A stretch of 64,000 bases of DNA from Gracilibacillus orientalis (GTDB lineage: Bacteria; Bacillota; Bacilli; Bacillales; Amphibacillaceae). Positions 44,446 to 64,000 of the stretch are shown here, in pieces (the first letter of the stretch is position 1; every line of letters starts with the position of its first letter). The stretch spans positions 186,001 through 250,000 of the forward strand of contig NZ_FOTR01000001.1 of assembly GCF_900114645.1 (NCBI RefSeq). The letters run 5' to 3'. Position numbers and translations under genes: made by a program. The notes below the pieces were generated by a model. It was not told the DNA's origin. It made no database searches and saw only the letters and a program-made list of their open reading frames with translations.

Positions 44446-44939
44446 TATTAATACAACTACTGCTTTAACAGAAATTCCGATAAGTAAATCAAAAGCAGAT
44501 TTTATATTAATTAATGGGAAAGCGGTAGTTTATGAAATCAAAACAGAATTAGATACTTTTGAACGTTTGAATTCACAAATAAATGACTATTTCAGAGCTT
44601 TTGATCATGTATGTGTTGTTACTTCTGAATCACAATATAAAAAAGCTGAAAAGAAGTTAAAAGACTCTAAAGTGGGGATATGTGTCTTGACAAAAAGAAA
44701 TACAATAAGGACACGTAAAGAACCTATCATGTTATATCAGATCCTGGCGAAAAATTTGATGAAGTTTTAAAAAAATGATAGATTGGCAAAAAAATCAAAA
44801 TATTGATACGTTAGGCATGAAAGAGTTTGTAAAACATTTTGAAAAAGGTACATATCCTGGTTTAGGTACTGTAAAGAATCTTTCAATTATGCATCACGTT
44901 GAATTAGTTAGCAAATTTCTCGAGGAGAAAACGCAATGA
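44443..44939 (+). pseudogene. sce7726-like gene remnant
   Basis: From the IS3 junction a protein-like frame reads SKSKADFILINGKAVVYEIK then TELDTFERLNSQINDYFRAF and VCVVTSESQYKKAEKKLK, which resembles the sce7726 family, where the D...E-x-K residues suggest a nuclease-like fold. The N-terminus is missing. After about 44730 the continuation is in other frames (ISDPGEKFDEVLKK, then MIDWQKNQNIDTLGMKEFV from 44775), consistent with one or more frameshifts, one at a run of seven A. It ends at 44939, overlapping the RES gene start. Confidence 0.55.
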
Positions 44940-45583: not shown

Positions 45584-45648
45584 TAGGCCACTTCCTCCAA
45601 AATATAGGCACCTACACGGTTCTTACGAACCTAGCAGATGCCATTCAA

Positions 45649-46407: not shown

Positions 46408-47507
46408 ATGACAACTCCTTCTTTCATTAACTTGTCGTATTGGCTTAACTCTGGAGTTTTAACCTTCACTTCATCGTTAATTGGAATCGGTTCTACATGA
46501 GTAATTGGTACAAGTAGATGCTGTATTAAATCTAAGGAGAGGTCCTGAGAGTTGTTTCCCTATCCTTATCAGTTGAGTGGATACATTGCTTTTAACTGGT
46601 TTTGCATTAAAGGCACTACGTGGTCTATGTAATGTTCACGCGAGTATTTGGTTTCTCCACGTCCATAGCAGCGAGGGTAGTTTGCTATTTGTTTTAATTT
46701 ATAGACAATAATAACTTTATTCCCAAACCCTTTTATACTAACGTCCTTATCAACATAATCCATTGGAACAGAGTAGTAATTATAGTCAAATTTAATCGTC
46801 GAGAAGCTGTCCACTTTATAGGTAGTACTCTTGCTTGTGTCAAATTGATAAGAAGGTAAAGCAGTAAATGCAATCTTTTCGTGACCTGCCATTTCTCCTA
46901 CAAGTACGATCCCTTCGGGCAATTTTGTGTTTTCGATACTTCAAGCATCTTTCAAGGGAGGATTTTATTTAATTCATCAAGGCTGTCAACTTTAGGTATT
47001 GGCACCAGTACGTTTCGTCTTATCCAGCCAACAAATCCTTTTTCATGTCCAGCAGCAATATTACAGAATTCTGTTTTAAATACATAGTGTGCAGCTAATG
47101 TTTTGTAACGTTCTTGTACTTTAGCGTGCGTTCCAAATCCTTCTTTTACTGCGACCTAAGCGTTATCAAAGATTACTCTTGAAGGGGCAATGTTCAAATC
47201 CATTAACATTACCTTCCAAGAAGCTTTCCTCGTTTTGTCTGTGAAATCCTTTTACAAATATATCGACACTATAAACATTGCCGCATACAAAACAAATTGA
47301 TTTTAACTTTTTTCCCACGAAGATACATCGTTGCTTCTCCCCAATCTATTTGTCCTGCTTCACCAGGTTCATAACTCAGAGGAACAAATACCTTCGCTCG
47401 TTTTTGTCGAAGAAATGCCACTACCTGTCGTATCGTAGATTCCCCACCTGTGAATCCATATTCATCGACTAAACGATCATAGATTCTACGATCAGTGTGT
47501 TTTTATT
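46404..47507 (-). pseudogene. IstA transposase of IS21, heavily degraded
   Basis: Pieces of IstA occur in different frames: YGFTGGESTIRQVVAFLRQK and GQIDWGEATMYLRG (first catalytic Asp region), then FDYNYYSVPMDY and CYGRGETKYSREHYIDHV in the 46569-46922 frame, ending LMKEGVVI just before istB. The N-terminal HTH is missing and several stops and frameshifts lie between the pieces. Confidence 0.8.
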
Positions 47508-47608
47508 TATTAATGTTTTCCTGTATAGATGTTTTTTTCTTCATATCCTAGATAGTCGACGATCAATCTCTAGAGATTAAATATACAAAATTATAGTTAT
47601 TTTCTCTA

Positions 47609-48310
47609 TTATAGTTCTAATTCATCTAAAAATTCTCTAATCTCTAAATCAGAAGGCCTTTGTAAAATAGATAAAGGAATCTTTAAACCTTCCATTTTAT
47701 TAAATCCTCCAAATTTAGTTACATTAGAAGGGAACAATTGATGATTTATTGAATTTATATAAATGTCATCCAGTGTAATGCCTTCATAACAAATCCATTG
47801 CGTTTTATCTTTAATAAGATCTTCTCTATGAAATTCGCTTTCCTTATACATATTAAAAATGGTTAATACGAATGAGAAAAATTGTGATTTGTCTACGGTA
47901 ATTTGCTTTCTCGAATTGCCTATCCCAATACTAATTCCAGATCTTTGAGCGGTTGTACTACGATTATGCTTATTAATGTAATTCAATATTTTCTCAAAAT
48001 TAGCATTGTCCAATGCATGATACCAGTAGTCTAACTTTATTTCAGACTTACCTACGATTTGAATAGGTACTAATTTGCAATTTAAATCAATTAGTGATTT
48101 GAGTCTATGGTGACCATCCAAAACAATCAGTCTGTTATTAAGGTTTAAACAATTAATAGGATTATTAATAAAACCGGTTTGCTGTATATCTTTCAGTATA
48201 TTATTTATATTTTTTGTAACTTGTTCGTGGGGATATAAAGCTTCCGGTTTTACAAATTTTATATTATCAATGGAGTTAGTAATCTGATTCTTTTTTTGTA
48301 TATAATTCAT
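47609..48310 (-). CDS. SbnI-like ParB-fold protein, probable serine kinase for Dap synthesis
   Basis: 233 residues. The N-terminal ParB/Srx-like domain shows FVKPEALYPHEQV and the motif IVLDGHHRLKSLIDL. It is like SbnI of the staphyloferrin B locus, an ATP-dependent free-serine kinase giving O-phosphoserine, the substrate of SbnA; SbnI also acts as a haem-responsive regulator there. Both partner genes (SbnB-like and SbnA-like) are directly upstream on this strand. The function is inferred from fold plus context. It is the last gene of the peptide operon; AAGGAGAAG precedes the ATG. Confidence 0.72.
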   Translation of the reverse strand: MNYIQKKNQITNSIDNIKFVKPEALYPHEQVTKNINNILKDIQQTGFINNPINCLNLNNRLIVLDGHHRLKSLIDLNCKLVPIQIVGKSEIKLDYWYHALDNANFEKILNYINKHNRSTTAQRSGISIGIGNSRKQITVDKSQFFSFVLTIFNMYKESEFHREDLIKDKTQWICYEGITLDDIYINSINHQLFPSNVTKFGGFNKMEGLKIPLSILQRPSDLEIREFLDELEL

Positions 48311-48397
48311 AACTTCTCCTTATATAAACAGTTAGATTTAATTAATTTTAAGAAAAAGCAAAATAGAGTTTGTTTATTACTACTCGTGCCTATTTGC

Positions 48398-49357
48398 TTA
48401 TAGCTCTTGACCTACGTTAAGTTCTTTTGATTTTTTATAATAGTACTCTGCTAAGGCTATATCAAAAACAGCCATTCCCATGGGATTAAACATTACATTA
48501 TTATTTTGATTGTAATCTTTAAACCCTTCCCTACAAACTATATCGGTGATCGTTTTAACCATATTTTCTTCAAGGCCTTTTTCTAGAGAGAATCTCTCAA
48601 CATCCGTATCCTCCCTGCAAACTTCCTTCCAATTATCTACAATGATGGTATCTTTAACATACTCATAAACTTCGCTAGTATAATCCCTTAGAGATACATT
48701 TAATAAAAGTGCTCCTGCTTTTGGTTTTTCATTGATATATGGTTTATCTGAAACCGTACAAGTCATAACTATATCACTGTTTAAATAAGCCTCTTTCCAA
48801 TTATTACAAACAATAAATCTATTATCCTTTTTAAGGTTTTCTTTATGAATTTCTTTTAAATCATAGATATAAATCTTCTTGATTTTATCACCAAGTAACG
48901 CTGTTACCATTTGATAATGTTGTTGCCCTATAGGACCCCAGCCAATAATACCAATGTTAAGATTAGTGTCATCTTTTTGTTTTAAATAATGCTTCATTAT
49001 CAACCCGGAAACTGATGCTGTTCTAATAATACTTATTAAAGGAGTATTAATGATTGATTTTACTTCGCCTGTATCTGCATTATTAATTACGACTACACAA
49101 TTTGCTCTTGGAATATTTTTTTTAATGTTATCTGGAAAACTCGCAATCCACTTAATTCCAGCAGAGTGAATATCTTGGCCTACGTATGCAGGCATAGCTA
49201 TTATGCGGTTCTTCATATTGTTATACCTTAAATACGGTTTTACAGGTTGAGCATAATCATCCACATCTAATGCTTGTACTGCTGTTTCAATACAGCTAAT
49301 AGTTTCATTCCAATTAGTGTCCATTTGTCTAAATTCATTATCAGATAAATATTTCAT
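48398..49357 (-). CDS. SbnB-like dehydrogenase (ornithine cyclodeaminase family) for Dap
   Basis: 319 residues of the ornithine cyclodeaminase/mu-crystallin family. The substrate side has YLRYNNMKNRIIAMPAYVG and GIKWIASFPDN; the NAD-binding Rossmann motif is IGIIGWGPIGQQHYQMV. SbnB oxidatively splits N-(1-amino-1-carboxyethyl)-glutamate into L-2,3-diaminopropionate and 2-oxoglutarate. The tight linkage to an SbnA-like gene 42 bases upstream supports this role over ornithine cyclisation. AAGGAGAC precedes the ATG. Confidence 0.85.
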   Translation of the reverse strand: MKYLSDNEFRQMDTNWNETISCIETAVQALDVDDYAQPVKPYLRYNNMKNRIIAMPAYVGQDIHSAGIKWIASFPDNIKKNIPRANCVVVINNADTGEVKSIINTPLISIIRTASVSGLIMKHYLKQKDDTNLNIGIIGWGPIGQQHYQMVTALLGDKIKKIYIYDLKEIHKENLKKDNRFIVCNNWKEAYLNSDIVMTCTVSDKPYINEKPKAGALLLNVSLRDYTSEVYEYVKDTIIVDNWKEVCREDTDVERFSLEKGLEENMVKTITDIVCREGFKDYNQNNNVMFNPMGMAVFDIALAEYYYKKSKELNVGQEL

Positions 49358-49399
49358 TTTAAGTCTCCTTCAGTTGGTTATAATAGTTTTATGGAAAAG

Positions 49400-50356
49400 T
49401 TATTGATTTACAGAAGTAATAATTTTGCTCATATATTCACTATACAAACTTTCAAAATATCGTTCCCCTCTATCTGCAAACAGGGTTACTACATTTGGCT
49501 TAAACCCAATTTTTTTGTTAAGAAAATATTTTTTCACCCCTGCAAATACTGACCCTGAAGATCCTCCAGCAAAAATATTATGTTTCCATAAAAGGTCTTT
49601 ACACATTTCAACACTTTCTTCTTCACTCACTATAACGACATCATCAATATAAGCTTCTGCTAAAATTGGTGGAATAATACTAGACCCTATTCCTGGTATA
49701 GATCTAAAGCTAGGTTTCTCTCCAAAGATAATAGAACCTTTAACATCGACTGCAATAATTTTAGAATTTGGAAAACGTTCTTTTACATATCGAGAAATAC
49801 CAGTAATTGTCCCCCCTGAACTAACTCCCAGAAATATATAATCAAGTTCAACCTGATCACATATTTCTTTTCCAACAGTCCTCCCATATGCATTTGCATT
49901 TTCTGGATTCTCATATTGGTTAATCCAATAGCTATTCTCAATCTCTTGAACTAATTCTTTTACCTTATCAATTCTTGAGATTAAATACCCTCCTGATTCG
50001 TCTGCTTTATCAACCTTTACTATCTCACCACCAACGGACTTTATAATAAATTCATTGATCGGTAATATTTTGGGATCTACTACACAGATGAATTTTAACC
50101 CATAATAGCTACAATAATTTGCTAGTGCTACACCAAAATTTCCAGACGACGATTCAATAATTGTTGTTGATTCATTTATGTTCCCACTATTCAATAGATG
50201 TTTGATCATTTCACTGGCAGCCCTATCCTTAACACTTCCTGTAGGGTTATATCCTTCTAATTTTGCAAATAAATTAATATTTTTCAACTTATCGTCCTTT
50301 ATTCGAACCATAGGAGTAGCTCCTACGCTTTCCAAAACGTTATTATATACTCTCAT
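49400..50356 (-). CDS. SbnA-like PLP enzyme (cysteine synthase fold) for Dap
   Basis: 318 residues. The PLP lysine lies in GYNPTGSVKDRAASEMI; the phosphate/substrate loop is ESSSGNFGVALANYC, and GVSSGGTITGISRYVKE binds the cofactor phosphate. SbnA-type enzymes join O-phospho-L-serine and glutamate into N-(1-amino-1-carboxyethyl)-glutamate. The E-S-S-S-G-N loop matches SbnA-type enzymes rather than the T-S-G-N-T loop of true cysteine synthases. It sits 44 bases after the C-A-T NRPS gene and 42 before the SbnB-like gene. AGAGGTG precedes the ATG. Confidence 0.87.
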   Translation of the reverse strand: MRVYNNVLESVGATPMVRIKDDKLKNINLFAKLEGYNPTGSVKDRAASEMIKHLLNSGNINESTTIIESSSGNFGVALANYCSYYGLKFICVVDPKILPINEFIIKSVGGEIVKVDKADESGGYLISRIDKVKELVQEIENSYWINQYENPENANAYGRTVGKEICDQVELDYIFLGVSSGGTITGISRYVKERFPNSKIIAVDVKGSIIFGEKPSFRSIPGIGSSIIPPILAEAYIDDVVIVSEEESVEMCKDLLWKHNIFAGGSSGSVFAGVKKYFLNKKIGFKPNVVTLFADRGERYFESLYSEYMSKIITSVNQ

Positions 50357-50399
50357 TTATATGCACCTCTTTTTTATCTTAATATTATGTTAATTTAGG

Positions 50400-53300
50400 C
50401 TAGTTAGCGTTAAAAGTATTTCTTTTTACTCTCTTAATATTATCAGGAACTAAAATATCGTTATTTTTTTTGTCTTTACTTATATAATCTGCTAAAAGCC
50501 TTATTGTTGGTAAATTGAAAAGCTCTCCTAAAGGAATTTGTACGCCGAATTCCTTATATATGTTTGATGCAATCGTTGTAGCTTTAATGGAGTGCCCACC
50601 TAAAGTATAGAAATTGTCATTCACACCGATCATATCTCTTTCAAGAACGTTCCGCCAAATAACCTGGAGCTTACTTTCAATCTCATTATTAGGCGCTTCA
50701 TACTCTGCTCTTAAGTCGTAAAATTGTGGTTCGGGAAGTGCATTAACGTCAATTTTACCGTTTTTGTTTAACGGAAACTTTTCTAGTGTTACATATGATT
50801 GAGGCATCATATAATATGGCATTTTCATTTGTAAGTCTTTGTGTAATTCCTCTACATCAATGGCATGTTTTGTAACCAAATATGCACACAACTTTTTATC
50901 ACCATTGTCACTAATTACGGTTGTAACAAAGGCATTTTTAACTCTTTGAAAGCTCAAAAGCTCCTGTTCAATTTCTCCTAGTTCAATTCTAAAACCTCTT
51001 ACCTTTACCTGTTTATCTTCTCTGTCAAGAAATTCTATATTCCCATTTGGCAACCATCTTCCATAATCTCCTGTTTTATAGACAATATTCGAGGAACCAA
51101 AGTTGGACATATCAATATCTTTGAATTGGTTTTTATTAAATAAATTTTCAGCCACTTTAAAACTCTTTTTAGTCAAGTCTGGTCTGTTTAAGTAACCTTT
51201 AATAAGTCCAGCACCTGATACATATATATATCCAGGAACACCAATGGGAACTATTTGCTTATTATTATTTAGTATAAATATGCTTGTATTAGAGATTGGT
51301 CTTCCAATAGGAACTGTTTTGAGATTTTCATCCATACAATCCAACTTATAAAATGTTGTGAAAATAGTATTCTCAGTAGGACCATACACATGAAGTATCT
51401 TACCTTTTCCCAAAGTATTTAATGCCTTCTCCATATGATTGTAAGATACTCTTTCTCCACCTGTTAAAACCTTTTTGATATTCTTAAGACAATTAACATT
51501 TAAATCCACTAATGTATTAAATAATACTGTCGTTATAAAAAATACAGTAATTTCTTCCTTCTCAATGATGTTTGCTAATTTGACAATATTAAATGATGTC
51601 TCTTTATCTACTAATACTAATTTAGCTCCATTTAATAGTGATCCAAATATATCAAATGCAGAACCATCAAAAGTATAATTTGATAATTGTAAAAGTGTAT
51701 CATTATGAGTAATTTCTATATAATTAGTATCTTTAACTGTTCTAATAACATTACGATGACTTGTAAGTGTCCCCTTCGGTCTTCCAGTCGACCCAGATGT
51801 ATATATTGTATAAATTAAATCATCTGGTAGATTCGTGTCTTCCAGGTTAACCGTTTCTTGTTTATTGATTTGTTGTTCATCAATATCCAAACAGATCTTA
51901 TAAATATTAGGATTCAATGCACTATTAAATGATGGTAATAACTCTGACTCGGTTATAAGAGCATAGCTTTTAGAATCCTCTAAAATATTCACCAGTCTAT
52001 CAACTGGACTCTTAGGATCTAAAGGTAAATATGCAGCTCCTGCTTTAATGATCCCCAAAATACCAACAATCATTTCAACAGACGGATTAACTAGTAACCC
52101 CACTATATCATTTGTTTTCACGCCTTTTTTTCTTATATAGTGGGCCAACTGATTCGATTTTTCATTCAATTCTTTATAACTAAATTCGTTGCCCTCAAAT
52201 ACTATTGCAGTATTATCTTTGTGGGCATCTACTTGTTCCTCAAACAGCTGTTTTACCGTTTTCTCGACTGAACTAGCTTTGGTGTTATTGAATTCATGAA
52301 CTATCTCATACCTTTCTTCCTTAGAAAGAATATCTACTTCATCAATCATTTTTAATTTATTATTAACAAGATTATCTAATATTGTATTAAAATGAATACT
52401 CATATTATTGATAACCTGAGGATCAAAAGAATGAACATCATATATAAAGTTTGTTTTTATTTGATTAAAGTCTTCAACAGAAAAAGTTAAATCATAATTA
52501 GTCATTTCAAAATTAGAGTAATTATTTATTTTAAGGGAACTCTTATCATTACCATCATAGTTTAGGTTTAATGGGTAATTCTCTATTACTACAATAGAAT
52601 TAAAAATATCTTCATTACCTATTTTTTCACTATGGTTTTTTATTTCATAAAGTGGTGTATGATTGTATACGTCTCTCTCTAGTAACATTTGATTAACGTC
52701 CATTAGAATGTTTTCTATCGTCTCTTTTCCTGAAATTTTTACTCGTAAAGGCAAGGTATTGATAAATAACCCTACCGTATTCTCAATATTATCTATATCA
52801 ACATTTCTTCCTGAGACTGTTGTGCCGAAAAGAATATCTTTTGACGAACTATACTTATGGAGTAACAGTGACCATGCAGTATACATCACTGTAGCAATAG
52901 TAAACTTATTTGTTCTAGTAAAGGCCCTAAGTTTAGACTCTAATTCAATAGGTAATAGACGGTTTAAACTTGCTATATTATTTTTTGAAGCATTTCCTTT
53001 ATTTTTCCTGTAAGTAGGTAGCTCAGTGGCTGACTCAAATCCCTTTAAATATGATTTCCAATAAGTCTGGGCCTGTGTTTCATCTACTTTATTGCATACC
53101 TCAATAAACTCGCTAAACTTACCTTTTTTATTCAAACTTATTTCCTTATTTTTAGATAAATTATTATAGAATTCAATAAATTCTTTTAGTATTATCCCGC
53201 TGCTCCATCCATCAAATAATATATGGTGATGAGACAAGACAACTTCAAACTCATTACTAGAAAGTTTAATCAAATGAATTCGGAACGGTTCTGAAGAAAT

Positions 53301-53663
53301 ATCTATTTTTTTCATCCTATCTTGTTGCTTAAGTTTTTCTAGTTCAGCAAGTGAAATTTCTTTATCAAGTTGAGTAAAATCATAATGTATAATTGGGACA
53401 ACCGCATCTTTTAAAACTACGCATACCGGTTGGGAAAGTTTTTCCCATCTAAAAACGCTTCGTAAAATTTCGTTCGACCTCACCACTGATTCCCACGTAC
53501 TTTTAAATATAGAGTTTTCTATATTCCCAGTAATATTTAGAGATACTTGTTCAAAATACTGTTCACTTTCACTATCTTGTAAGTAGTGATATAACAATCC
53601 CTTTTGCATAGGTGTCAATTCGAGAATTCTTTCTACATTATTTTTTTCTATTGTTGTATGCAA
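50400..53663 (-). CDS. Nonribosomal peptide synthetase, one module C-A-T (Ile-like pocket)
   Basis: 1087 residues. The C domain covers about 13-440 with active motif HHILFDG at 146-152 and the first motif LTPMQKGLLYH, as in C domains that accept a D-residue donor. The A domain covers about 460-970 (YTSGSTGRPKG near 620). The pocket residues read by eye are D-G-F-F-L-G-V-I-F-K, eight of ten matching the classical isoleucine code. The T domain (GGHS near 1019) ends the protein; there is no TE domain. The start is TTG with AAGGAGG seven bases upstream. It comes 71 bases after the peptidase-transporter gene. Confidence 0.92.
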   Translation of the reverse strand: MHTTIEKNNVERILELTPMQKGLLYHYLQDSESEQYFEQVSLNITGNIENSIFKSTWESVVRSNEILRSVFRWEKLSQPVCVVLKDAVVPIIHYDFTQLDKEISLAELEKLKQQDRMKKIDISSEPFRIHLIKLSSNEFEVVLSHHHILFDGWSSGIILKEFIEFYNNLSKNKEISLNKKGKFSEFIEVCNKVDETQAQTYWKSYLKGFESATELPTYRKNKGNASKNNIASLNRLLPIELESKLRAFTRTNKFTIATVMYTAWSLLLHKYSSSKDILFGTTVSGRNVDIDNIENTVGLFINTLPLRVKISGKETIENILMDVNQMLLERDVYNHTPLYEIKNHSEKIGNEDIFNSIVVIENYPLNLNYDGNDKSSLKINNYSNFEMTNYDLTFSVEDFNQIKTNFIYDVHSFDPQVINNMSIHFNTILDNLVNNKLKMIDEVDILSKEERYEIVHEFNNTKASSVEKTVKQLFEEQVDAHKDNTAIVFEGNEFSYKELNEKSNQLAHYIRKKGVKTNDIVGLLVNPSVEMIVGILGIIKAGAAYLPLDPKSPVDRLVNILEDSKSYALITESELLPSFNSALNPNIYKICLDIDEQQINKQETVNLEDTNLPDDLIYTIYTSGSTGRPKGTLTSHRNVIRTVKDTNYIEITHNDTLLQLSNYTFDGSAFDIFGSLLNGAKLVLVDKETSFNIVKLANIIEKEEITVFFITTVLFNTLVDLNVNCLKNIKKVLTGGERVSYNHMEKALNTLGKGKILHVYGPTENTIFTTFYKLDCMDENLKTVPIGRPISNTSIFILNNNKQIVPIGVPGYIYVSGAGLIKGYLNRPDLTKKSFKVAENLFNKNQFKDIDMSNFGSSNIVYKTGDYGRWLPNGNIEFLDREDKQVKVRGFRIELGEIEQELLSFQRVKNAFVTTVISDNGDKKLCAYLVTKHAIDVEELHKDLQMKMPYYMMPQSYVTLEKFPLNKNGKIDVNALPEPQFYDLRAEYEAPNNEIESKLQVIWRNVLERDMIGVNDNFYTLGGHSIKATTIASNIYKEFGVQIPLGELFNLPTIRLLADYISKDKKNNDILVPDNIKRVKRNTFNAN

Positions 53664-53733
53664 ATCTTTTCCTCCTTGATCATACTGTTGGTAATTATTT
53701 TTTTATATGAATATTTAGAATAAAGTAAACAGA

Positions 53734-56700
53734 TCAATTCAATACCATACTCTGATTGTCTAAACTAATCATTTTTCCCATGTCCATTTTAATAACTTTA
53801 TCCGCATAAGAAAAATATCTATCATCATGTGTAACTGCAATTATACATTTTCCTTTTTTCTGAAGATCAGGTAATAGGTTGCTATAGAAAAACAGTCTAA
53901 ACTCTGGATCTTGATCAGCGGTCCATTCATCAAACACATATATTGGTCTATCATCTAAGTAAGAAACTAATAAAGCTAATCTCTTCTTTTGACCAGTAGA
54001 TAACTTAGTGGTACTAAATTTCCCATTAATTATTTCCACTTTTTTATCTAATTGTAATATCTTTAGATAATTTTTAATTTCATTTTCCTTATCCGTATAA
54101 TCAATGCCATAAAGCTTTTCAAATAAGAAAAAATCATTAAATATTGCTGAATAGTATTCATTTAGAATGTTTGGGGAAACCGTATTACCGTTCAGTATTA
54201 AATTTCCGCTTGTCGGAGTATATAATCCCGTTATAAGCTTGGCAAAAGTAGATTTTCCGCTTCCATTACCTCCAGTGATAAAAATAATTTCACCAGAATT
54301 AAACTGATAGTTAATCGGGCCTACCTTGAATTTAGTTTCTTCCCCTTGATTATATTCGTACGCAACATCCTTCAATTGTAGTTGAACTTCTGCATAATGT
54401 TGAACTTGTTGAGAAGTAACTGAGTTAACCTTCGAAGTTAGTTTATCGATTAACGTTGTAATCCTATTTAGGCTTATTTTTATCTCAATAATATTTGGGA
54501 TTGTGTCTAATATAGCGTGAATAGGACCAATCATATACAATAAGATAAATACATAACTAGTTATATTTGCTGTTTCAAGATTATTCAATACAACTGGAAA
54601 AACTAGTGCTATACATCCGATAGCAAGTGTAAATAACAATTCACCCATTACAAACATATTAGCAAATGCTAAAGCAGATTTCTTTTTTGTATCTTTATAT
54701 CTATCTGAACTTTCTTCTAAATCATTTTGAAACTCCTGCTTTTTTTTCCTACTAAGAGTTAACTCTTTAAAGCCAGAGACAAGACTAAAAATGTACTTAA
54801 AAAATATATTTTCTAGATCTCTCGACTCTTCACCAATTCTATTTGCATATCTGCCAGCTAGATAATAAATACTGGCAATAAATAAAATTATTCCTAGAGA
54901 TAGTAGGAGCACATAAAAATTTATAAAACTCAAGTATGCAAAGCAACATATTAAAGTGATAGCACTAGTAATTCCACCTACTATTATATTTGTGGCATTG
55001 CTAATTGTTTCTGTATCGTTATTTAAAGTAGACTCAATCGTTCCCTTTTCGATATTTTCAAAATGCTCATAGGGAGTACTTAACAACTTCTTAACTATCT
55101 GCATCCTCTTGAAATAAACTATTTCATTTGTAATACTTATTACTTTTGCTCTCACAATTTTTTGCCCATATACGTAGATAATGATACCTAAAACGAAATA
55201 AACGATTAAATTTATTTTTGTTTTCTCATCACTATTTATAGCTAAGTTAATGGTCAAAATAATGAGCGCATTCCCTAACCCGCTTGCAATACTAACTAAC
55301 GATAGCATCAACAGTGATTTATCATCTTTCTTTTTTACAAAACTAATTAGCAGAGAGTAAGCGTACACTAACCAAAGACAAGCATATCCCAAATAAAGCG
55401 CCCATTTTATACTAGAAGGTAACCATATAAAAGTGAATTTCCAATCTACTCCATCGTAAAAAATGTAAGGAATTAAGTATATGCAATATGATAAAATCAT
55501 CATAATGATTAAGGAAGCTAAAATCTTTAATATACCCCTTTTACCTTTCTTATCTACATACCTTCTTTTAGCTTTTAACTCTTTTAATACCTTTATAATA
55601 AACCCTAAACTTGTAGCAATAATTATTATAGAAACACAAATGATTGCTACGGCTATATAGTCCGTTATCATATTCAAATCTTTTATATTGCTAACATTAC
55701 CTTCGTCTAATAGGATCTTATTAATCTCATTACCAATATTCTCAACATAAGCTGAGTTAATATTACTTAAAACTGCAATACCAATCTTTTCTTCTGGTCT
55801 AAAGAGGATAAAAGATGAATAGTTAGGGTTATTTCCTCCATGGGATATTTCCCCGCCTCCCTTTTGGTATACAAACCATCCACTTGCGTAGGAAGATCCA
55901 TCTTGTAGTTGTTCAACTCTACGATTTGCTATATGTGACTTTTCAATTAAATTATTGTTAAATTTCGATTCCTTTAAGACGCCAAGTTGAATTTTTAACC
56001 ATTTTTCCATATCATTAGAATTAGTAATGATATATCCTGCTGGCTTATTCCCCTCATAACTAGGAGCATTATACAATCGAGGCTCCGTAAATAACTGTTT
56101 ATAACCTTGAGCCATTCTATCTTTTTCAAACTCATTATCATACATATAGGTATTATTTAATCCCATTGGTTCTAATATATTTCTTTTGATAAACTCTTCA
56201 TATTTAATACCAGTTGTCTTTTCAATTAATAAGCCTAAAATATCATAATTGATAGTGGCGTATTGAAATTTCTCTCCTGGAGTGCTATCTAATTCCACTC
56301 CGACTAGCGTCCTTACAGTAGCTTCTATAGCTTTTTCTCCATTAGAAATAGGAATTTCACTTATAGTATTAAATGGAACGCCACTGGTGTGATAAAGTAT
56401 ATCTCTTACTGTAACGGTAGCTTTTTCTCCTTTATACGTCATACTTAACCATGGTATATAGTCTGTTATTGGAGCATTAATATCTACAGTGCCGTTGTCG
56501 ACTAAAGTAAGAACTCCTAAGGCCGTAAAAGCCTTACTTGTAGATCCTAATTCAAACAAAGTATCAGACGTTACTTCCTTACCGTTATCAATATCTGCAT
56601 AACCAAATCCGCTCTTATAAACTGTTTTATCTTCATTTACAATAGTTACAGATAAACCTGGTATATCCCCTTTTTCCATTTGCTTTTCTATAAATTCTTC

Positions 56701-56820
56701 TATTTTCTTTATGTTTTCATTGGACACATTCACCTCGCTAGTTGCAGCACTTATTTCTAAAGAAGAGCTTAACAACAAACTCATAAACATAATAAATGTG
56801 AATATTATCTTGATTTGCAT
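53734..56820 (-). CDS. Fusion of secreted S12 prodrug-type peptidase with cyclic-peptide-type ABC exporter (ZmaM-like)
   Basis: 1028 residues. A signal-anchor (1-26) leads to an S12/beta-lactamase-fold domain (about 30-370): SxxK at S93-K96 (GSTSKAF), Tyr in YATINY at 187-192, and SHGGN near 330. Membrane helices lie near 385-408, 428-448 and 465-490, then the ABC exporter helices to about 790, and a nucleotide-binding domain with Walker A GGNGSGKST near 848, signature LSTGQ near 937 and Walker B IYVFDEW near 960. ClbP/XcnG/ZmaM peptidases remove N-acyl-D-Asn outside the membrane; ZmaM is the type with an added ABC part. A neighbouring Asn C-A-T-E module supports this role. GGGGGG precedes the ATG. 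Confidence 0.88.
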   Translation of the reverse strand: MQIKIIFTFIMFMSLLLSSSLEISAATSEVNVSNENIKKIEEFIEKQMEKGDIPGLSVTIVNEDKTVYKSGFGYADIDNGKEVTSDTLFELGSTSKAFTALGVLTLVDNGTVDINAPITDYIPWLSMTYKGEKATVTVRDILYHTSGVPFNTISEIPISNGEKAIEATVRTLVGVELDSTPGEKFQYATINYDILGLLIEKTTGIKYEEFIKRNILEPMGLNNTYMYDNEFEKDRMAQGYKQLFTEPRLYNAPSYEGNKPAGYIITNSNDMEKWLKIQLGVLKESKFNNNLIEKSHIANRRVEQLQDGSSYASGWFVYQKGGGEISHGGNNPNYSSFILFRPEEKIGIAVLSNINSAYVENIGNEINKILLDEGNVSNIKDLNMITDYIAVAIICVSIIIIATSLGFIIKVLKELKAKRRYVDKKGKRGILKILASLIIMMILSYCIYLIPYIFYDGVDWKFTFIWLPSSIKWALYLGYACLWLVYAYSLLISFVKKKDDKSLLMLSLVSIASGLGNALIILTINLAINSDEKTKINLIVYFVLGIIIYVYGQKIVRAKVISITNEIVYFKRMQIVKKLLSTPYEHFENIEKGTIESTLNNDTETISNATNIIVGGITSAITLICCFAYLSFINFYVLLLSLGIILFIASIYYLAGRYANRIGEESRDLENIFFKYIFSLVSGFKELTLSRKKKQEFQNDLEESSDRYKDTKKKSALAFANMFVMGELLFTLAIGCIALVFPVVLNNLETANITSYVFILLYMIGPIHAILDTIPNIIEIKISLNRITTLIDKLTSKVNSVTSQQVQHYAEVQLQLKDVAYEYNQGEETKFKVGPINYQFNSGEIIFITGGNGSGKSTFAKLITGLYTPTSGNLILNGNTVSPNILNEYYSAIFNDFFLFEKLYGIDYTDKENEIKNYLKILQLDKKVEIINGKFSTTKLSTGQKKRLALLVSYLDDRPIYVFDEWTADQDPEFRLFFYSNLLPDLQKKGKCIIAVTHDDRYFSYADKVIKMDMGKMISLDNQSMVLN

Positions 56821-56875
56821 AATAATCCCCCTTCAATTTAAAAGATTTTTCATCCAGACCCTATAATGATTGTGA

Positions 56876-59800
56876 CTAATTGAACATAATATCCAAGTCC
56901 TCCTGAGTCATACCATTTACTCTGAAATCTGAAGGGGTATATTCTCTTTCCAGCTTAGTAAGACAGTGATCGAAAATCTCTAATAAAACAGTAATATATT
57001 TATTAATAAGGTATTCTGCTTTCTCTTTTTTTAGAGTATGTTGATTATAGGTAAAGGATAGTTCTAGCTTTTCGTCAACTAGAATTGCCATTACGTCTAA
57101 AAGAGCAGTCATTTCGTTGCTTTCATCACTATCTAGACCGAATTTAACATTAGAAATATTATTTTCTTTATCTTTTAGAAAATCATTAAAATCACCAATA
57201 TAGTTAAATCGTATATATTTTTTAAAGTCACCATCTATTTCATTTTTTAAATATCTAAGAATACTATAGTTAAATCCTTTATTAGGTACTTGTCTTAACT
57301 GTTCTTTGATAGACATCATCTTACTTTCTAGTGAATTCTGATCAACAGTAAAATATGCAGGGAATATGCTAGTAAACCAACCAACAGTCCTTGATACATC
57401 CAATGATTCAAGGAAATTCTCACGCCCATGTCTTTCCAACTCTATGATGACCTCATTGCTATCACTAAATTTATTTAACGTCAATACAAGTCCTATTACC
57501 AATAATTCATTTACATCGATATTATATATATCATTTGCCTTTTGTATGGGATCAATAATTCTTGTTCTATCCATACTTGTTTTTATGGTAATAGAATTGG
57601 CATTTGTACTATTTTCTTTTTCAGCAGAAAGAACTAGAGTATCTAAGTCCTTGTTCAAGATTGATGTCCAATAATCTTTTTCCTCTTTAAACTCTTGTTT
57701 ACTATACTCTACTAAGTGGTTCGCCCATTTCTTATAAGAATTTGTTTTTAAATATGGAATGATACTTTCATTATTATTAATACCATCGATCACTGCAAAA
57801 AAGTCTTCTATGAGAATGCGCCACGAGAAACCATCAACCATTAAATGATGAGCAATAAATAATAAAGCTTGGCCTCTTTCGCCTAAATCAAATACCTTCA
57901 CTCTAAAATTAAGGTTATTTTCTAAATTAAAATCTGTTTCTAAACTATTTGATATTACTTCATCTTGAGTAACTTGATTTCTTTCACTTAAATCTAAATA
58001 ATCAACTACATCAATATCTACTAAATTTAAATCCTTATAATATAAGGTTGCTTTTTCTCTGTCATAGTTAACACGTAACATATCATGGTATTCAATTAGG
58101 TGATTTACTGTTTCTTTAATTTTGTCTAAATTTAATGCTTTTGAAATTTCCAGTAATACATATTGATTGTAATGATTATCATTCTTAAAATTTTGATTAA
58201 AAAACCAATTGGTAATAGGAGTATTAGTGATCTTTCCAGCATATTCGTCTTTATTAATTAGGTTGCTTTTTTGTTTTTTAATTATATATTTGGGAATATC
58301 TGCTAATTTATCACTTAAAAGAATATTATTTACCTTAAGTTCCATATCAAGGCTTCTCAATTTTCCAACTATCTGTATAGCTTTTATAGAGTCACCGCCT
58401 AATTGAAAAAAGTTATCGTTCATACTAACTTTCTTTAGGTTCAATACATCCCCTATTACTTTGAGTAATTCCTTTTCTAAGTCCGTAACCCCATCTACAT
58501 AATTTTCATTAAGATTAACTTTAGGTAATAGGGAAAAATCAATTTTCCCATTACTTGTAAGAGGGAATTCATCTATACATATATAATTATTAGGTATCAT
58601 AAATTGAGGCAGAAATTGAGATAGCCATTTTTTTATCTCTAAATTTTCAAATTGTTTTTCTGCGATTATATATGCTGTAAGAATATTAGGATTATTATTA
58701 AGTACAACAACATCTTTGACATACTTATTTTCTAAGATGCAACTCTCAATTTCCGCGATTTCAATTCGATGTCCACGTATTTTCACCTGACTATCTGCTC
58801 TACCTAAATATTCGATATTTCCATCAGCTAGGTACGTTCCGATATCACCTGTTTTGTACATTCGTTGTCCATTTATAAAGGGATTAGTTAAAAATCTCTC
58901 CTTAGTTAACTCTTCTTGATTTAAGTAACCTTTTGATACTCCATCTCCAGAAATATAGATTTCTCCTGGTATACCATTAGGCAAGACATCTAAATCTTTA
59001 TTTAGAATATATATCTGAACATTGTCAGCCGGATATCCTATTGGCACTGATTTCCTTAAATATTCTACAGGCTTATACTTATACCACATACAACCAACAA
59101 CAGTCTCGGTTGGTCCATATTCATTATATATATCAATATTCTTATTAAAGCTTTCATATATTTCGGATGCCAAAGTAGTCTTTAAATCTTCTCCACCTAC
59201 TACAAATGTTCTAACAGAACTATTCTCATAATTCAGGTCTTTTAATAAGGATAGATGGGATGGTGTTAGTTTAATTAAAGTAGATTTATTTTCTTTAAGA
59301 ACCTTATAAAGAATAAATTCATTGTCTCCATTATGATAAATTCTAATGGAAGTGCTAGAAATTAAAGGTGTAAAGATTGAAGTAATAGTTAAATCAAATG
59401 ATATGGAAGAATACAATGCAAAAATTTCCTTATCATCTTTCACATATTTTCTCTTAGCCCAGGATAAATAGTTCATTAATCCCTTTTGTTCGACCAAAAC
59501 ACCCTTAGGCTTTCCAGTGGATCCGGATGTATAGATTATATAAGCAATATCTTCTGGACTCTCCAGCTCGTTTAAGTTGTTTTTGGAATATGACTCTAAT
59601 GTCATTCCTTTTAAATTTACTATTGATCCTTCAAAATCGACATTTGTAATAACATCAATATCTGCTAATAGAATTCCACTATTGGAATCATTCAGTATAT
59701 ATTCTATTCTTCCACTAGGATAACTTGGATCAATCGGTACATACGTTCCTCCTGATTTTAGTATACCTAGTATACCTATAATTAGTTCAAAAGAATGCGC

Positions 59801-61336
59801 TGTCATAATTGCAACATTTGAACCTTTATTTACACCGACTTCTTTAAGATAATTGGCCAGTTGGTTAGACTTCTCATTCAACTGTCGATATGTTAAATAT
59901 TCATTCTCTAAATATAAGGCTATTTTCTCGGGATTACTTTTCACTTGCAATTCAAAAATTTCTTGGACCGTGCTACTACTTGGATAAGTATAGTTAGTCG
60001 AATTAAAGGTGAATATCTTTTGGAAACGTTCGTTATCATCTAGTAAGTGTATATCTTTAAAATGAGTGTTCGGTGAGTCGATAACTTGTCTAATAATATT
60101 TTGTATACATTCATACATATTAATAATATCTTCTTCTAAATACTCACTCAGCTTATAATCAAAGGAAAATATAATGTCATTTTTCTCTTCTTTAATTACT
60201 AGTTGTAAGGGATAATTCTGGTGCCCACTATAATACTCTTCAATCTCCAATTCGATTCCTTCTATATTGGAGGTAAATTCAGAATTATAGCAGTTAACAG
60301 ACATAGTAAACAAACTATCAAACCCTCTTTTGTTTAATTCTAAGTCCTTTATAAGTAAATCATACGGATATCTCTGATTTCTGTAACAGTTTTTCATTTC
60401 CTTCTTAACGGCTATTAATAATTCAGTAAATGGACTCTCATTATTTACTGTAAACCTAAAGGGCATGGTACTAGTAAACATGCCAACTAAACTTTTTTCA
60501 GCCTTTCCTAAACGATTAAATATAGGAGTACCAATAGTAATATCATCCTGATTGCTGGTTTTACCTAAATAAATAAGTGCACATGTTAAGATAAAATCAT
60601 TTAAAGTATAATTATTATCTTTTAAATATTTTTTAAGTTGAATTGAGATGTTTTGTTCAGCAATAAAATTTTTCCTATTTCCCTCGAGTTTTTCTGAAGA
60701 CTTATACAAAAACTCCGTATTTAAATCACTAAATTTGTGATTCCAATATGTTTTATTTTTAGAATATCTTTCCGAGTTTATATATTCATCTTCACTTTTT
60801 ATAAAATCTAAATAGGAAGACTTCGAAGTTATTGGTTTATCCGATCGAATCAACTTGTGATAATTTTCACATATTTGTCTTTCAATAAGAGCTATAGACC
60901 ACCCATCGGCAATTATATGATGAATAGCTAATACAAAGCCGTATTCATTATTACTCTTTTTATATATAGCAAAATAATATAGTTTATTATCTTCCAGTTC
61001 AAATCTTTTTTTAAATATCTCTTTTACCCAAGTGCGCAATTCATTTTCTGAATGTTTTATTGTGGTGAAATCAAAAAAGTCTATATCCTCGTAATCATAA
61101 TTCCTGATGAACTGATAGAGATCCCCTTCCATTTCACGGAAATTTAATCGAAGTCCCTCATTATTTTGAATGGTAATATTAATAGCTCTTTCTAATTTTT
61201 CAACCTCAATTGGACCTTTAAAATTTAATGTACCTCCAATAGTATGTAATGGAGAATCAGTGTAAATCTTATCAATGTATCCAATCCTTTTCTGTGGATG
61301 TGTTAATCTGTAATATTTATTCTGCTCTTCTCCCAT
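56876..61336 (-). CDS. Nonribosomal peptide synthetase, C-A-T-E starter-like module (Asn pocket)
   Basis: About 1486 residues. The C domain begins LTHPQKRIGYIDKIYTDSPL, a pattern of lipo-initiating starter C domains, with HHIIADG as active motif. The A domain (YTSGSTGKPKG near 605) has pocket residues D-L-T-K-V-G-E-V-G-K, nine of ten to the asparagine code. The T domain has GGDSIKA near 977. The E domain shows PITNWFF, HHLMVDGFSW near 1164, RTVGWFTSIFP and FNYIGDF, so it is a full epimerase. Predicted product: N-acyl-D-Asn on the carrier. ATG 61336 has GAAAGG nine bases upstream; the ATG at 61360 overlaps the preceding stop. Confidence 0.93.
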   Translation of the reverse strand: MGEEQNKYYRLTHPQKRIGYIDKIYTDSPLHTIGGTLNFKGPIEVEKLERAINITIQNNEGLRLNFREMEGDLYQFIRNYDYEDIDFFDFTTIKHSENELRTWVKEIFKKRFELEDNKLYYFAIYKKSNNEYGFVLAIHHIIADGWSIALIERQICENYHKLIRSDKPITSKSSYLDFIKSEDEYINSERYSKNKTYWNHKFSDLNTEFLYKSSEKLEGNRKNFIAEQNISIQLKKYLKDNNYTLNDFILTCALIYLGKTSNQDDITIGTPIFNRLGKAEKSLVGMFTSTMPFRFTVNNESPFTELLIAVKKEMKNCYRNQRYPYDLLIKDLELNKRGFDSLFTMSVNCYNSEFTSNIEGIELEIEEYYSGHQNYPLQLVIKEEKNDIIFSFDYKLSEYLEEDIINMYECIQNIIRQVIDSPNTHFKDIHLLDDNERFQKIFTFNSTNYTYPSSSTVQEIFELQVKSNPEKIALYLENEYLTYRQLNEKSNQLANYLKEVGVNKGSNVAIMTAHSFELIIGILGILKSGGTYVPIDPSYPSGRIEYILNDSNSGILLADIDVITNVDFEGSIVNLKGMTLESYSKNNLNELESPEDIAYIIYTSGSTGKPKGVLVEQKGLMNYLSWAKRKYVKDDKEIFALYSSISFDLTITSIFTPLISSTSIRIYHNGDNEFILYKVLKENKSTLIKLTPSHLSLLKDLNYENSSVRTFVVGGEDLKTTLASEIYESFNKNIDIYNEYGPTETVVGCMWYKYKPVEYLRKSVPIGYPADNVQIYILNKDLDVLPNGIPGEIYISGDGVSKGYLNQEELTKERFLTNPFINGQRMYKTGDIGTYLADGNIEYLGRADSQVKIRGHRIEIAEIESCILENKYVKDVVVLNNNPNILTAYIIAEKQFENLEIKKWLSQFLPQFMIPNNYICIDEFPLTSNGKIDFSLLPKVNLNENYVDGVTDLEKELLKVIGDVLNLKKVSMNDNFFQLGGDSIKAIQIVGKLRSLDMELKVNNILLSDKLADIPKYIIKKQKSNLINKDEYAGKITNTPITNWFFNQNFKNDNHYNQYVLLEISKALNLDKIKETVNHLIEYHDMLRVNYDREKATLYYKDLNLVDIDVVDYLDLSERNQVTQDEVISNSLETDFNLENNLNFRVKVFDLGERGQALLFIAHHLMVDGFSWRILIEDFFAVIDGINNNESIIPYLKTNSYKKWANHLVEYSKQEFKEEKDYWTSILNKDLDTLVLSAEKENSTNANSITIKTSMDRTRIIDPIQKANDIYNIDVNELLVIGLVLTLNKFSDSNEVIIELERHGRENFLESLDVSRTVGWFTSIFPAYFTVDQNSLESKMMSIKEQLRQVPNKGFNYSILRYLKNEIDGDFKKYIRFNYIGDFNDFLKDKENNISNVKFGLDSDESNEMTALLDVMAILVDEKLELSFTYNQHTLKKEKAEYLINKYITVLLEIFDHCLTKLEREYTPSDFRVNGMTQEDLDIMFN

Positions 61337-61360
61337 AATAATCATCCTTTCTAACATCAT

Positions 61361-62047
61361 TTATTCTAATAATGTTCTATTTAAGATATCAGAAATTTGT
61401 TCTATATTATCGTTAATATAGAAATGATTTCCTTCTAATTCATACACGGTTGATTTACCTTGGGAATGTGATTGCCAATCTAGCATATCTTCAAATTTCA
61501 ACACCTCTTCATTACCATATAGAAGAGTTATATCACATAAAATTTGGTTAGCCTTTTTGCTATAAGTATAAGAATTTATTAGCTCAAAATCATTTCTTAT
61601 AATCGGTAAATAGATGTCTAAAAACTCCTCATTTTGTAAAAGCTCTTCTTGAGTCCCCCCAAGGTTTCTAATCCTATTTATTAAGTCCTGGTCAGTTAAC
61701 TTCTTTATAAGATTATTCCTTTTATTATGAGGTGCTTTATAACTTGAGAAAAAGAGGTGTTTAGGTTTTTTCATGTTTGACTCTTGAATTTTGTAATAGA
61801 GTTCATAGGCAATCAGACTTCCCATGCTATGTCCAAAAATGGCATAATCACTATCAGTGTTATCCGATATATAGCCATAAACATCCTCGATTACTTCTTC
61901 AAAATTAGAATAGAAAGGCTCATTGAATCGTTTTCCTCTCCCTTTTAATTCTATAGGCTCTAAAACAATCTTATCACTTAAATAATTTTTCCATTTATAA
62001 TAAGCTGAGGCGCTTCCTCCGGCATATGGTAAACAAAATAATCTCAA
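61361..62047 (-). CDS. Type II thioesterase (SrfAD-like)
   Basis: 228 residues. The alpha/beta-hydrolase motifs are LPYAGGSASAYYKW (oxyanion region), nucleophile GHSMGSLIAYELY and C-terminal histidine in ELEGNHFYI. Stand-alone thioesterases of this family clear wrongly loaded carrier domains in NRPS lines; here it could also release product because no TE domain is fused to the visible NRPS. Its stop is immediately followed by the next gene's start region, and the PPTase gene ends five bases upstream. Confidence 0.9.
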   Translation of the reverse strand: MRLFCLPYAGGSASAYYKWKNYLSDKIVLEPIELKGRGKRFNEPFYSNFEEVIEDVYGYISDNTDSDYAIFGHSMGSLIAYELYYKIQESNMKKPKHLFFSSYKAPHNKRNNLIKKLTDQDLINRIRNLGGTQEELLQNEEFLDIYLPIIRNDFELINSYTYSKKANQILCDITLLYGNEEVLKFEDMLDWQSHSQGKSTVYELEGNHFYINDNIEQISDILNRTLLE

Positions 62048-62052
62048 GATTA

Positions 62053-62787
62053 TTACCCCTTCTCCTGTTGTAAATAAATATTATTAAAATGGCTAATTAA
62101 TTCTTTTTGATCAACTGTTATAATATTTGGTTTTACAATATCCTTTCCAGAACAAACAGCAATTTTATATCCAGGTATTACATTATATTGAAACAGACTT
62201 TTGTAGTAGTCATTCTGGTAGTTCCCATTAACTACAGAAATATTGCCTTCTAAAGATATATTTATAGAGAAATCTTTTAAGGAGAGCGATAATCCTAACC
62301 CGCAACATTTAATATAACTCTCCTTCAAAGTCCATATTTCATAAAATTTATCTAATCTATTATTTGAATCACTATTAATATACTTACATTCTTCATTTGT
62401 AAAAAAGGCAGTTGATATTTCTTCAACATTTAAAGGTTTAATCTCCTCAATATCACAACCAACATCATTATCATTAATTGCGCACATTACATAATTCCCG
62501 GAATGGGAGATATTAAAATGAAAAGAAGGAAAGCCCTTAAGAGAAGGCTTTCCATACAGATTTTTTTCAAAATAAATTTCTTTATTTTCTATCCCTATTT
62601 TTCCCATGATAAGATACCTGATGAGAACTTCTCCAACTGTTGTACGTAATTTGTCCTCAGATTTAATAAACCTTTGAACTCTTTTACTTTTTTCAGAGTC
62701 CATTAGTGGATAAAGATTTGAAAGTTCCCCATCAGCTAAACTGGTGATTTTGACTAAGTATATATCCATAATGCTATTGAATAACAT
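62053..62787 (-). CDS. Sfp-type 4'-phosphopantetheinyl transferase
   Basis: 244 residues. Diagnostic motifs are FHFNISHSGNYVMCAI, VGCDIEEIKPL and the WTLKESYIKCCGLGLSL stretch, with the metal-binding D and E and the catalytic K-E-S-Y. It converts apo T domains of the NRPS into the holo form by moving phosphopantetheine from CoA. Its place inside the cluster makes the locus self-sufficient for carrier activation. No strong ribosome site is seen; the start is coupled to the preceding gene, three bases away. Confidence 0.93.
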   Translation of the reverse strand: MLFNSIMDIYLVKITSLADGELSNLYPLMDSEKSKRVQRFIKSEDKLRTTVGEVLIRYLIMGKIGIENKEIYFEKNLYGKPSLKGFPSFHFNISHSGNYVMCAINDNDVGCDIEEIKPLNVEEISTAFFTNEECKYINSDSNNRLDKFYEIWTLKESYIKCCGLGLSLSLKDFSINISLEGNISVVNGNYQNDYYKSLFQYNVIPGYKIAVCSGKDIVKPNIITVDQKELISHFNNIYLQQEKG

Positions 62788-62789
62788 TT

Positions 62790-63614
62790 TTATGAATTTT
62801 TTGAGTTATCGAAAAAGAATTCCGAAATCATTTTAAAAAAAAGCTCTGGAGATTCCAGGTTAGCTAAATGTGCAGCATCAGGTATTGTAATCCTTTTAAC
62901 AGAAGGAAGTTCTTTACTCATTAGCTCAGATATATCATGAAAATCTTGAACATCATACTTACCATTAATAATTAGTACAGGGACTCGAATATCTTTTATC
63001 TGTAAGATGTTATCTTCCGTTTCTATTTCTTCGCAAGGATGATCTGGTTCAGGCTTAGTTAAAGATTTTATCTGCATATCAATAACTAATTGTTTCACAT
63101 CTGAATTGATAAGTTCAGGGTCCCTATTTCTTAGTATCCATGTTTCATAGTTAAACTGTGCTGTTTCTTCTATTTTACCTTCTTGTAATAATTTTTCTTC
63201 TCCTTCTTCATATTCTTGGAGGTAAGACGAGTCTTCCCATCCACTTAAAGCTGGAGACAAAAGTGCTAAACTCAGACATTTTTCTGGGTTCTCTAGATAA
63301 AAATCAATAGCTATTTTCCCACCAAATGAAGCTGCTAAAATATGAGTATGGTTAATGTCTAGGTGTGTAAGAAGTTCATTAATAATATTACTATAAGAGT
63401 AATTTACTCCAGTGAAATCACTTGATCCATAGCCAGGAAGATCAAGCCTAACTACCCGATATTTTTCTGATAATAAGTGAAATTCTTTATCCCACATACG
63501 TGAATCTGCAATTCCAGCATGAAGTAATAATAAATTTTCACCAGTACCTTTTGAGTGAAAATAAATATTAGCTCCCGTAGCATTAAGAATCCCTTTTACT
63601 TCATTTGTTTGCAT
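62790..63614 (-). CDS. Alpha/beta hydrolase of the NRPS cluster
   Basis: 274 residues. Features are LLLLHAGIADSRMWDKEFHLL, VRLDLPGYGSSDF, the nucleophile elbow AASFGGKIAIDFY, aspartate in NGKYDVQDFH and histidine in DAAHLANLESPE. This is the classical esterase/C-C hydrolase-like fold without a signal peptide. Possible roles are product release, editing or cleavage of a tailoring group; nothing in the sequence decides. GGAGG precedes the ATG; it follows the NRPS that runs off the window by about 110 bases. Confidence 0.85.
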   Translation of the reverse strand: MQTNEVKGILNATGANIYFHSKGTGENLLLLHAGIADSRMWDKEFHLLSEKYRVVRLDLPGYGSSDFTGVNYSYSNIINELLTHLDINHTHILAASFGGKIAIDFYLENPEKCLSLALLSPALSGWEDSSYLQEYEEGEEKLLQEGKIEETAQFNYETWILRNRDPELINSDVKQLVIDMQIKSLTKPEPDHPCEEIETEDNILQIKDIRVPVLIINGKYDVQDFHDISELMSKELPSVKRITIPDAAHLANLESPELFFKMISEFFFDNSKNS

Positions 63615-63722
63615 AGTATACTAACCTCCACTTTATATTTATAAATAAATAATGAGCAATACTTAAAACATGAATAAGGTAAGGCTATCTCTATATAAGA
63701 AACGACCTCACATATAACTTGC

Positions 63723-64000
63723 TTATAATTTCAGTCTTTTTAATATACTCTCAGCACTTTCTCCCTTTTCCATCCTATTTAATAATTCAATAGCTTCATT
63801 TTCGTCTAACAATTCAATAGCAGCTATTAAATTATCCTTTGCTTCAATATCTTTCATAATAAACCTAGCTACTGACTCAACTGTTGGATTCTCAAAAAAG
63901 TCTCTAAATCCTAATGTGTAACTAAATTCTCTCTCAATTTCAATAATTAATTTATTAACAAGTAAAGAATGGCCACCTATATCAAAAAAGTTATTATTCA
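63723..64000 (-). CDS. Nonribosomal peptide synthetase, C-terminal end only (gene continues beyond window)
   Basis: The open frame entering from the right edge reads NNFFDIGGHSLLVNKLIIEI, the serine-bearing core of a T domain, followed by FRDFFENPTVESVARFI. After the T domain come about 45 charged residues (ELLDENEAIELLNRMEKGES to the stop at 63723), predicted to form helices, as seen in C-terminal docking tails of NRPS and PKS lines. No E or TE domain follows. Being upstream of all other cluster genes here, it is probably an early or main assembly-line protein. Its substrate cannot be told. Confidence 0.88.
   Translation of the reverse strand, partial: NNNFFDIGGHSLLVNKLIIEIEREFSYTLGFRDFFENPTVESVARFIMKDIEAKDNLIAAIELLDENEAIELLNRMEKGESAESILKRLKL

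Follow-up and report, generated by a model that had tools for sequence, protein, structure and literature searches.

Does a pair of neighbouring genes in Gracilibacillus orientalis hold both halves of a self-protection system, in which a peptide is built behind an N-acyl-D-Asn mask that is cut off outside the cell? The pair lies in a 64,000-nucleotide window (C14:186001-250000 of a 4.6-Mb genome) and comprises a nonribosomal peptide synthetase (NRPS) with condensation (C), adenylation (A), thiolation (T) and epimerisation (E) domains, and a fusion of an S12 peptidase with an ABC half-transporter (S12-ABC). The original prediction, made from the letters of the window, read these genes as such a prodrug system. 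Our computational analysis supports that interpretation, which we consider very probably correct. The contig to the right of the window was fetched as well, and positions there are given in window-equivalent coordinates.

A peptidase of the ClbP/ZmaM family fused to a transporter

53734..56820, minus strand: S12 peptidase, three transmembrane helices (3TM) and ABC half-transporter in one chain, a putative prodrug-activating peptidase of ZmaM-like type (1028 aa, signal peptide)
55750..56700, minus strand: extracytoplasmic S12 (beta-lactamase family) peptidase domain, residues 41-357
55339..55677, minus strand: ClbP-type three-helix membrane domain, residues 382-494, with D387, P451, W460, W466 and P468
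53782..55314, minus strand: ABC half-transporter of the TIGR01194 family, residues 503-1013, with Walker A GGNGSGKS and signature LSTGQ

The S12-ABC open reading frame (ORF) is intact where it had been predicted, with AAGGGGG (by eye) 5' of its ATG. A domain search found the Beta-lactamase (S12) domain at residues 41-357 (family E 2.6e-73), ABC_membrane at 522-766 and ABC_tran at 835-968, and the protein scores 381 bits against the TIGR01194 cyclic peptide exporter model (cut-off 286.2). In the alignment its S93, K96 and Y187 correspond to the catalytic S95, K98 and Y186 of the ClbP family. In the ClbP/ZmaM/XcnG family the D-Asn pocket is marked by N331, E92, a serine or threonine at 188 and a histidine or asparagine at 257; S12-ABC carries N331, E90, T189 and N258 at these positions, so that by alignment the pocket residues on which the prediction depended are present. 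A linker helix at 460-466, with W460 and W466, lies between helices 426-448 and 470-494, as in the TM2-TM3 linker of the family's three-helix membrane domain. The C-terminal ABC half-transporter and the length of 1028 aa agree with the ZmaM subtype (about 1,100 aa), and the gene belongs to an NRPS cluster whose Asn starter module ends in E. Judged by its sequence, the protein is a further ZmaM-like member of the prodrug-activating peptidases, and it would be expected to cleave acyl-D-Asn amides.

An S12 domain could also belong to an ordinary cell-wall or beta-lactam hydrolase that became fused to a transporter. However, the structure model of S12-ABC matched full-length ClbP best in a fold comparison ranked among Foldseek's top 1000 chains, and among the chains listed only full-length ClbP entries also aligned closely over the three-helix domain. 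Moreover, T188 and N331 differ from Flp, and the best class C beta-lactamase model reached 108 bits against a cut-off of 415. An ordinary hydrolase is therefore hardly credible.

An Asn starter module ending in an epimerisation domain

56876..61336, minus strand: Asn C-A-T-E starter NRPS (ATG 61336 favoured by a ribosome-binding site; longest ORF from 61360)
60026..61318, minus strand: starter-type C domain, HHxxxDG intact, proposed to acylate Asn (tree; domain search)
58544..59956, minus strand: A domain, Asn, code DLTKVGEVG(K) (alignment)
56921..58210, minus strand: E domain, HHxxxDG intact (tree; domain search)
50400..53663, minus strand: C(DCL)-A-T module, Ile-like, code DGFFLGVIF(K) (C grouping; presumed code reading)

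The starter NRPS gene, 55 bases from S12-ABC, is likewise intact. Its ORF (56876-61360, minus strand, 1494 aa) encodes a C domain at residues 15-445, an A domain at 469-939, a T domain at 964-1013 and a second C-family domain at 56921-58210, which the tree places among epimerases; the predicted start at 61336 has AGGA (by eye) 5' of its ATG. A-domain codes were read by aligning the cluster's own A domains, with positions placed by the GrsA scheme and the tenth residue, K, assumed; the nine positions of the starter A domain read DLTKVGEVG. The similar code DLTKIGEVGK is discussed among Asp/Asn codes and is also compatible with beta-cyano-alanine, and DLTKVGHVG mostly denotes Asp, as described in PMC12283262.

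Had the starter C domain grouped with ordinary LCL domains, the prediction would have suffered, but the trees place it elsewhere. In a quick tree of 80 C-family domains (at least 380 aa, plus strand of oriented loci), it falls in a clade of 15 (99*) with 12 of the 13 C domains standing before Asn A domains in the loci used, together with 7c1k, a solved starter that forms a long branch, and a domain adjoining an ABC exporter of Bacillus sp. WMMC1349. A careful tree of the 59 rows left after dropping 21 (17 of the E clade, 7c1k, the C-terminal domain of NRPS1, L066_oth_854 and L078_oth_16356) again joins it to the same 12 domains (99/91) and to the WMMC1349 domain (100/100). The starter C domain thus groups apart from both LCL and DCL domains, and its closest relatives likewise stand before Asn A domains, in S12-ABC loci elsewhere. 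From its sequence, it may use an acyl-CoA or acyl-ACP donor to put a fatty acyl group on Asn. The cluster's own E domain falls, in the quick tree, in a 100* clade with 13 E domains that follow Asn A domains and three others.

The C domain of the Ile module belongs, in the careful tree, to a 17-row clade (100/100) that also holds C domains following S12-ABC elsewhere. The C domains of the two further synthetases, NRPS1 and NRPS2, lie outside both clades, towards the TycC LCL structure in the tree. The placements of the starter and Ile-module C domains therefore support the order acyl-D-Asn then Ile; beyond this point the trees leave module order unsettled.

The pair recurs widely

S12-ABC is scarce among close relatives. 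Within the genus, matches occur in 3 of 17 genomes (E <= 1e-100) and in the family in 2 of 159 (E <= 1e-150), full length in each case in its own genome only; a sample of the class gave matches in 27 of 398 genomes, with a best identity to others of 49%. None of the 5000 best plasmid records spans 80% of the query in one place. A scan of named records confirmed at least 563 relatives, from which the best 80 were taken (mutually related loci, flanks of at most 10 kb) and 30 annotated (L049-L078). A DLTKIGEVG-coded C-A-E set lies 5' of S12-ABC in 12 of these 30 loci, at a distance of up to about 110 bases in seven and 1.2-2.8 kb in five; the 12 belong to Bacillota apart from one Chloroflexota and one Pseudoalteromonas. 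Since the Asn-coded set recurs in this way, the pairing is not a chance one. By matched range, 25 of the best 80 loci bear the S12 domain (21 with an A domain, 13 with an Asn code, all DLTKIGEVG), and 55 match by the ABC part alone (21 with an A domain, seven with a DLTK code, namely three DLTKxGEVG and four DLTKVGHVG).

The two-gene arrangement that drew attention to the locus is thus common, and its peptidase family is already published (PMC9889268); what stands of the suggested newness concerns the compound, which may be new.

Two loci deserve separate mention. In G154 (L156), of the same family, the S12 and ABC parts are separate, overlapping ORFs with a DLTKIGEIG Asn-coded C-A-E set a few kb away, and the G+C content around the gene is 0.288 (L019). 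The Pseudoalteromonas luteoviolacea locus (L070) unites an Asn-coded C-A-E set, S12-ABC, SbnA/SbnB-like genes and a DIWEITADD A domain; it is a Gram-negative counterpart in which the use of diaminopropionate (Dap) may be shared.

Two observations weigh against the prodrug interpretation. The degenerate end of NRPS1, described below, may mean that the assembly line is not intact. In addition, two congeners (G010, L017; G016, L018) encode S12-3TM proteins that stand alone, are about 500 aa long and share the ten ClbP-type residues; neither a C nor an A domain was found near their genes, in 40 kb for G010 and about 20 kb for G016, where the contig ends 1.4 kb past the gene. These orphan ClbP-like peptidases of the same genus mean that the residues alone are no proof of a prodrug peptidase. 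They also fit the notion that the fusion exports and trims something else, the final lipopeptide keeping its acyl-D-Asn end. We find this quite improbable, because here the two genes are close neighbours, the pair recurs in 12 other named loci, and a ClbP-family inhibitor made acyl-D-Asn precursors accumulate in zwittermicin and edeine producers (PMC9889270).

The cluster extends through two further synthetases

49400..50356, minus strand: SbnA-type enzyme of 2,3-diaminopropionate synthesis (TIGR03945, 383.5 bits, cut-off 349.95)
48398..49357, minus strand: SbnB-type enzyme of 2,3-diaminopropionate synthesis (TIGR03944, 305 bits, below cut-off 326.9)
47609..48310, minus strand: SbnI/SerK-like protein, possible O-phosphoserine supply for SbnA (weak match to NF033589, 46.9 bits, cut-off 350)
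61361..62047, minus strand: stand-alone thioesterase (type II)
62053..62787, minus strand: 4'-phosphopantetheinyl transferase (Sfp type)
62790..63614, minus strand: alpha/beta hydrolase, possible releasing enzyme in trans
63723..73328 (in the window to 64000), minus strand: NRPS2, three C-A-T modules, Asn, Dap/Dab-like (Dab, diaminobutyrate) and Dap/Dab-like
73470-78863 (window-equivalent): NRPS1, C-A-T, then a stretch weakly matching C and a C-like domain lacking the His pair
78877-80259 (window-equivalent; L013:17877-19259): serine hydroxymethyltransferase (SHMT)-like gene, first of the operon
82621-83148 (window-equivalent), plus strand: LoaP antiterminator, a paralogue of NusG (NF033641, 193.7 bits, cut-off 125)

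Extending the contig rightward carried the cluster on through NRPS2, NRPS1 and the SHMT-like gene. Read leftward, the order is SHMT-like, NRPS1, NRPS2, alpha/beta hydrolase, Sfp, thioesterase, C-A-T-E, S12-ABC, Ile module, SbnA, SbnB and SbnI/SerK-like. All 12 biosynthetic genes are ORFs, with gaps of 0-141 bases. The predicted Dap cassette is present, and NF033589 is the best NCBIfam match of the SbnI/SerK-like protein, far under its cut-off. In Pfam scans none of the four NRPS proteins showed an internal thioesterase domain, and the cluster proteins scanned matched neither a ketosynthase nor an acyltransferase model; a polyketide synthase carrier model was also matched by one NRPS2 T domain.

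The Ile-like module, also predicted, has the code DGFFLGVIF, which we take to denote Ile. NRPS2 reads DLTKIGEVG, DIWELTADD and DIWEITADD, the last two presumably Dap or Dab codes; a PDB search with the DIWELTADD A domain was uninformative on specificity. The NRPS1 code DMFHLGLMD, whose fourth residue is uncertain (W possible by eye), resembles Ser and Thr codes quoted in PMC12283262, and no residue was assigned. Among the codes discussed there, two for Dap share 80% identity with Dab codes (PMC12283262). In sum, the cluster codes for Asn, an Ile-like residue, Asn, two Dap/Dab-like residues and one Ser/Thr-like residue.

The end of NRPS1 (window-equivalent 73470-75581) holds a GGDSI-type T domain, a truncated E-like stretch with a weak C match (20.7 bits), and a C-like domain with FNCYALLDG (by eye) in place of HHxxxDG. 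In the quick tree this last domain sits, long-branched, at the base of the DCL clade, and when the C-terminal 703 aa were compared with 398 genomes of the class, matches other than its own spanned about the second half only, at 22-27% identity. From its sequence, this end looks like a decayed E-DCL pair, or else a docking or release platform.

Such decay would suit a cluster whose genes are as described but which no longer makes its product, and the truncated stretch, the missing catalytic His pair and the long branch all favour it. Against it stand the 12 ORFs with their short gaps, the motifs kept (by eye) in the E domain, the T domains and the remaining C domains, and the first C domain of NRPS2, which lies outside the DCL and starter clades and so agrees with a loss of epimerisation at the upstream residue. 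On balance we think an inactive cluster unlikely.

The SHMT-like protein reads VASSS where the GlyA chain 3gbx reads IASEN, and its closest solved relative is 7qcw; a relative with 46% identity occurs in G319, with an NRPS, an AlkZ-like gene and a chorismate-binding gene close by. It is perhaps a biosynthetic branch of SHMT. An alpha-methylserine role, as with FmoH/FmoA3, came out unsupported: a PDB search with the NRPS1 A domain pointed to no such synthetase, and a literature search on this reading gave nothing relevant.

An IS3-type transposase lies between the LoaP gene and the operon. Some 256 bases 5' of the SHMT-like ORF is a promoter-like site that matches at 11 of 12 positions, a weak signal given that the scan returned 18 sites against 13.9 expected. 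The leader 5' of this gene folds no better than shuffled sequences (z 0.11), no Rfam model reached its gathering threshold in L013 and L014, and neither leader folding nor the Rfam scan demonstrated a LoaP target hairpin. Tandem and inverted repeats showed nothing telling.

The cluster lies on an acquired island

42573..64000: part of the island within the window (island to about window-equivalent 84597; absent from congeners G012 and G014)

G+C content is 0.296-0.310 in window 48001-64000 and 0.335-0.384 before 48001. In alignments, C14:228572 and 270598 lie only ~1.6 kb apart in G012, and C14:228498 and 270591 only ~2.35 kb apart in G014; since the flanks nearly adjoin, about 42 kb is missing from both congeners. 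The gene cluster is a horizontally acquired island. Transposase and IstB pieces lie near both island ends, the transposase pieces inside them, and such pieces can also be counted in favour of an inactive cluster.

At the left end, 42824-43687 (minus strand) encodes a 287-aa protein without convincing family match. Just outside, in a flank common to G012, are genes for a Mph(B)-like macrolide phosphotransferase (41202-42110, minus strand; 518.6 bits, below cut-off 615) and a MATE efflux pump (39743-41110, plus strand).

Proposed mechanism and significance

We propose that the starter C domain places a fatty acyl group on Asn, which the E domain would convert to D-Asn, and that the DCL-type C domain of the Ile module would then add Ile to give acyl-D-Asn-Ile-. 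Four further modules (Asn, two Dap/Dab-like and one Ser/Thr-like, their order unsettled) would extend the chain, with the SbnA/SbnB pair supplying diaminopropionate. The ABC half may move the inactive precursor across the membrane or receive it there, and the outward-facing S12 domain would cut after D-Asn, so that a peptide beginning with Ile is released outside the cell. A more specific picture is conceivable but doubtful: a new Dap-rich, cationic, purely nonribosomal peptide antibiotic with N-terminal Ile, carrying an unusual beta-hydroxy or alpha-substituted residue made by the divergent SHMT-like enzyme and loaded by the DMFHLGLMD module, whose dead E and DCL domains would serve for docking or release.

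D-Asn masking is a sign of compounds toxic enough to endanger their producer. An unassigned cluster such as this one, with a complete mask-and-cut pair, is therefore a promising place to look for a new bioactive peptide, whose precursor could be trapped directly with the published ClbP-family inhibitors (PMC9889270). The locus is also an example of the masking system reaching, on an island, a lineage that seldom has it, with full-length S12-ABC in 1 of 159 family genomes, its own.

Comparison with known systems

S12-ABC shares with ClbP of the colibactin pathway nine diagnostic residues and the fold of a peptidase followed by three helices. ClbP, in contrast, has no ABC domain, is 30-32% identical to S12-ABC over its full length, and has K235 where S12-ABC has M. 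The module content found here was set against the zwittermicin, edeine, amicoumacin, paenilamicin, xenocoumacin and colibactin pathways as generally described; edeine contains Dap, and its module content probably differs from that found here. The edeine cluster (Brevibacillus) likewise has a D-Asn mask and a ClbP homologue (PMC9889270).

The published alignment of 271 prodrug-activating homologues divides them by length into ClbP-like and ZmaM-like (PMC9889268). ZmaM of zwittermicin A (Bacillus cereus UW85) likewise joins a ClbP-like peptidase and a C-terminal ABC half-transporter in one chain (PMC9889268), and it is from this published description that the likeness of S12-ABC was drawn. An acyl-D-Asn precursor of zwittermicin A was seen with inhibitor and 13C4-Asn (PMC9889270). 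Zwittermicin is a polyketide/nonribosomal peptide hybrid (PMC4207774), whereas the cluster proteins scanned here matched no ketosynthase or acyltransferase model.

The loci L049-L054, L057, L059, L060, L069, L070 and L074 (Paenibacillus, Cohnella, Marininema and others) likewise have an Asn-coded C-A-E set upstream, but their S12-ABC proteins are at most 49% identical to this one and the following modules that were read carry other codes. In line with the prediction that the cluster matches no recognised product, no description of it was found in the open-access literature searched or among the best 80 loci, which is not to say that none exists. The self-masking mechanism is one already known from zwittermicin, edeine and colibactin, and the product that it would protect against could be new.

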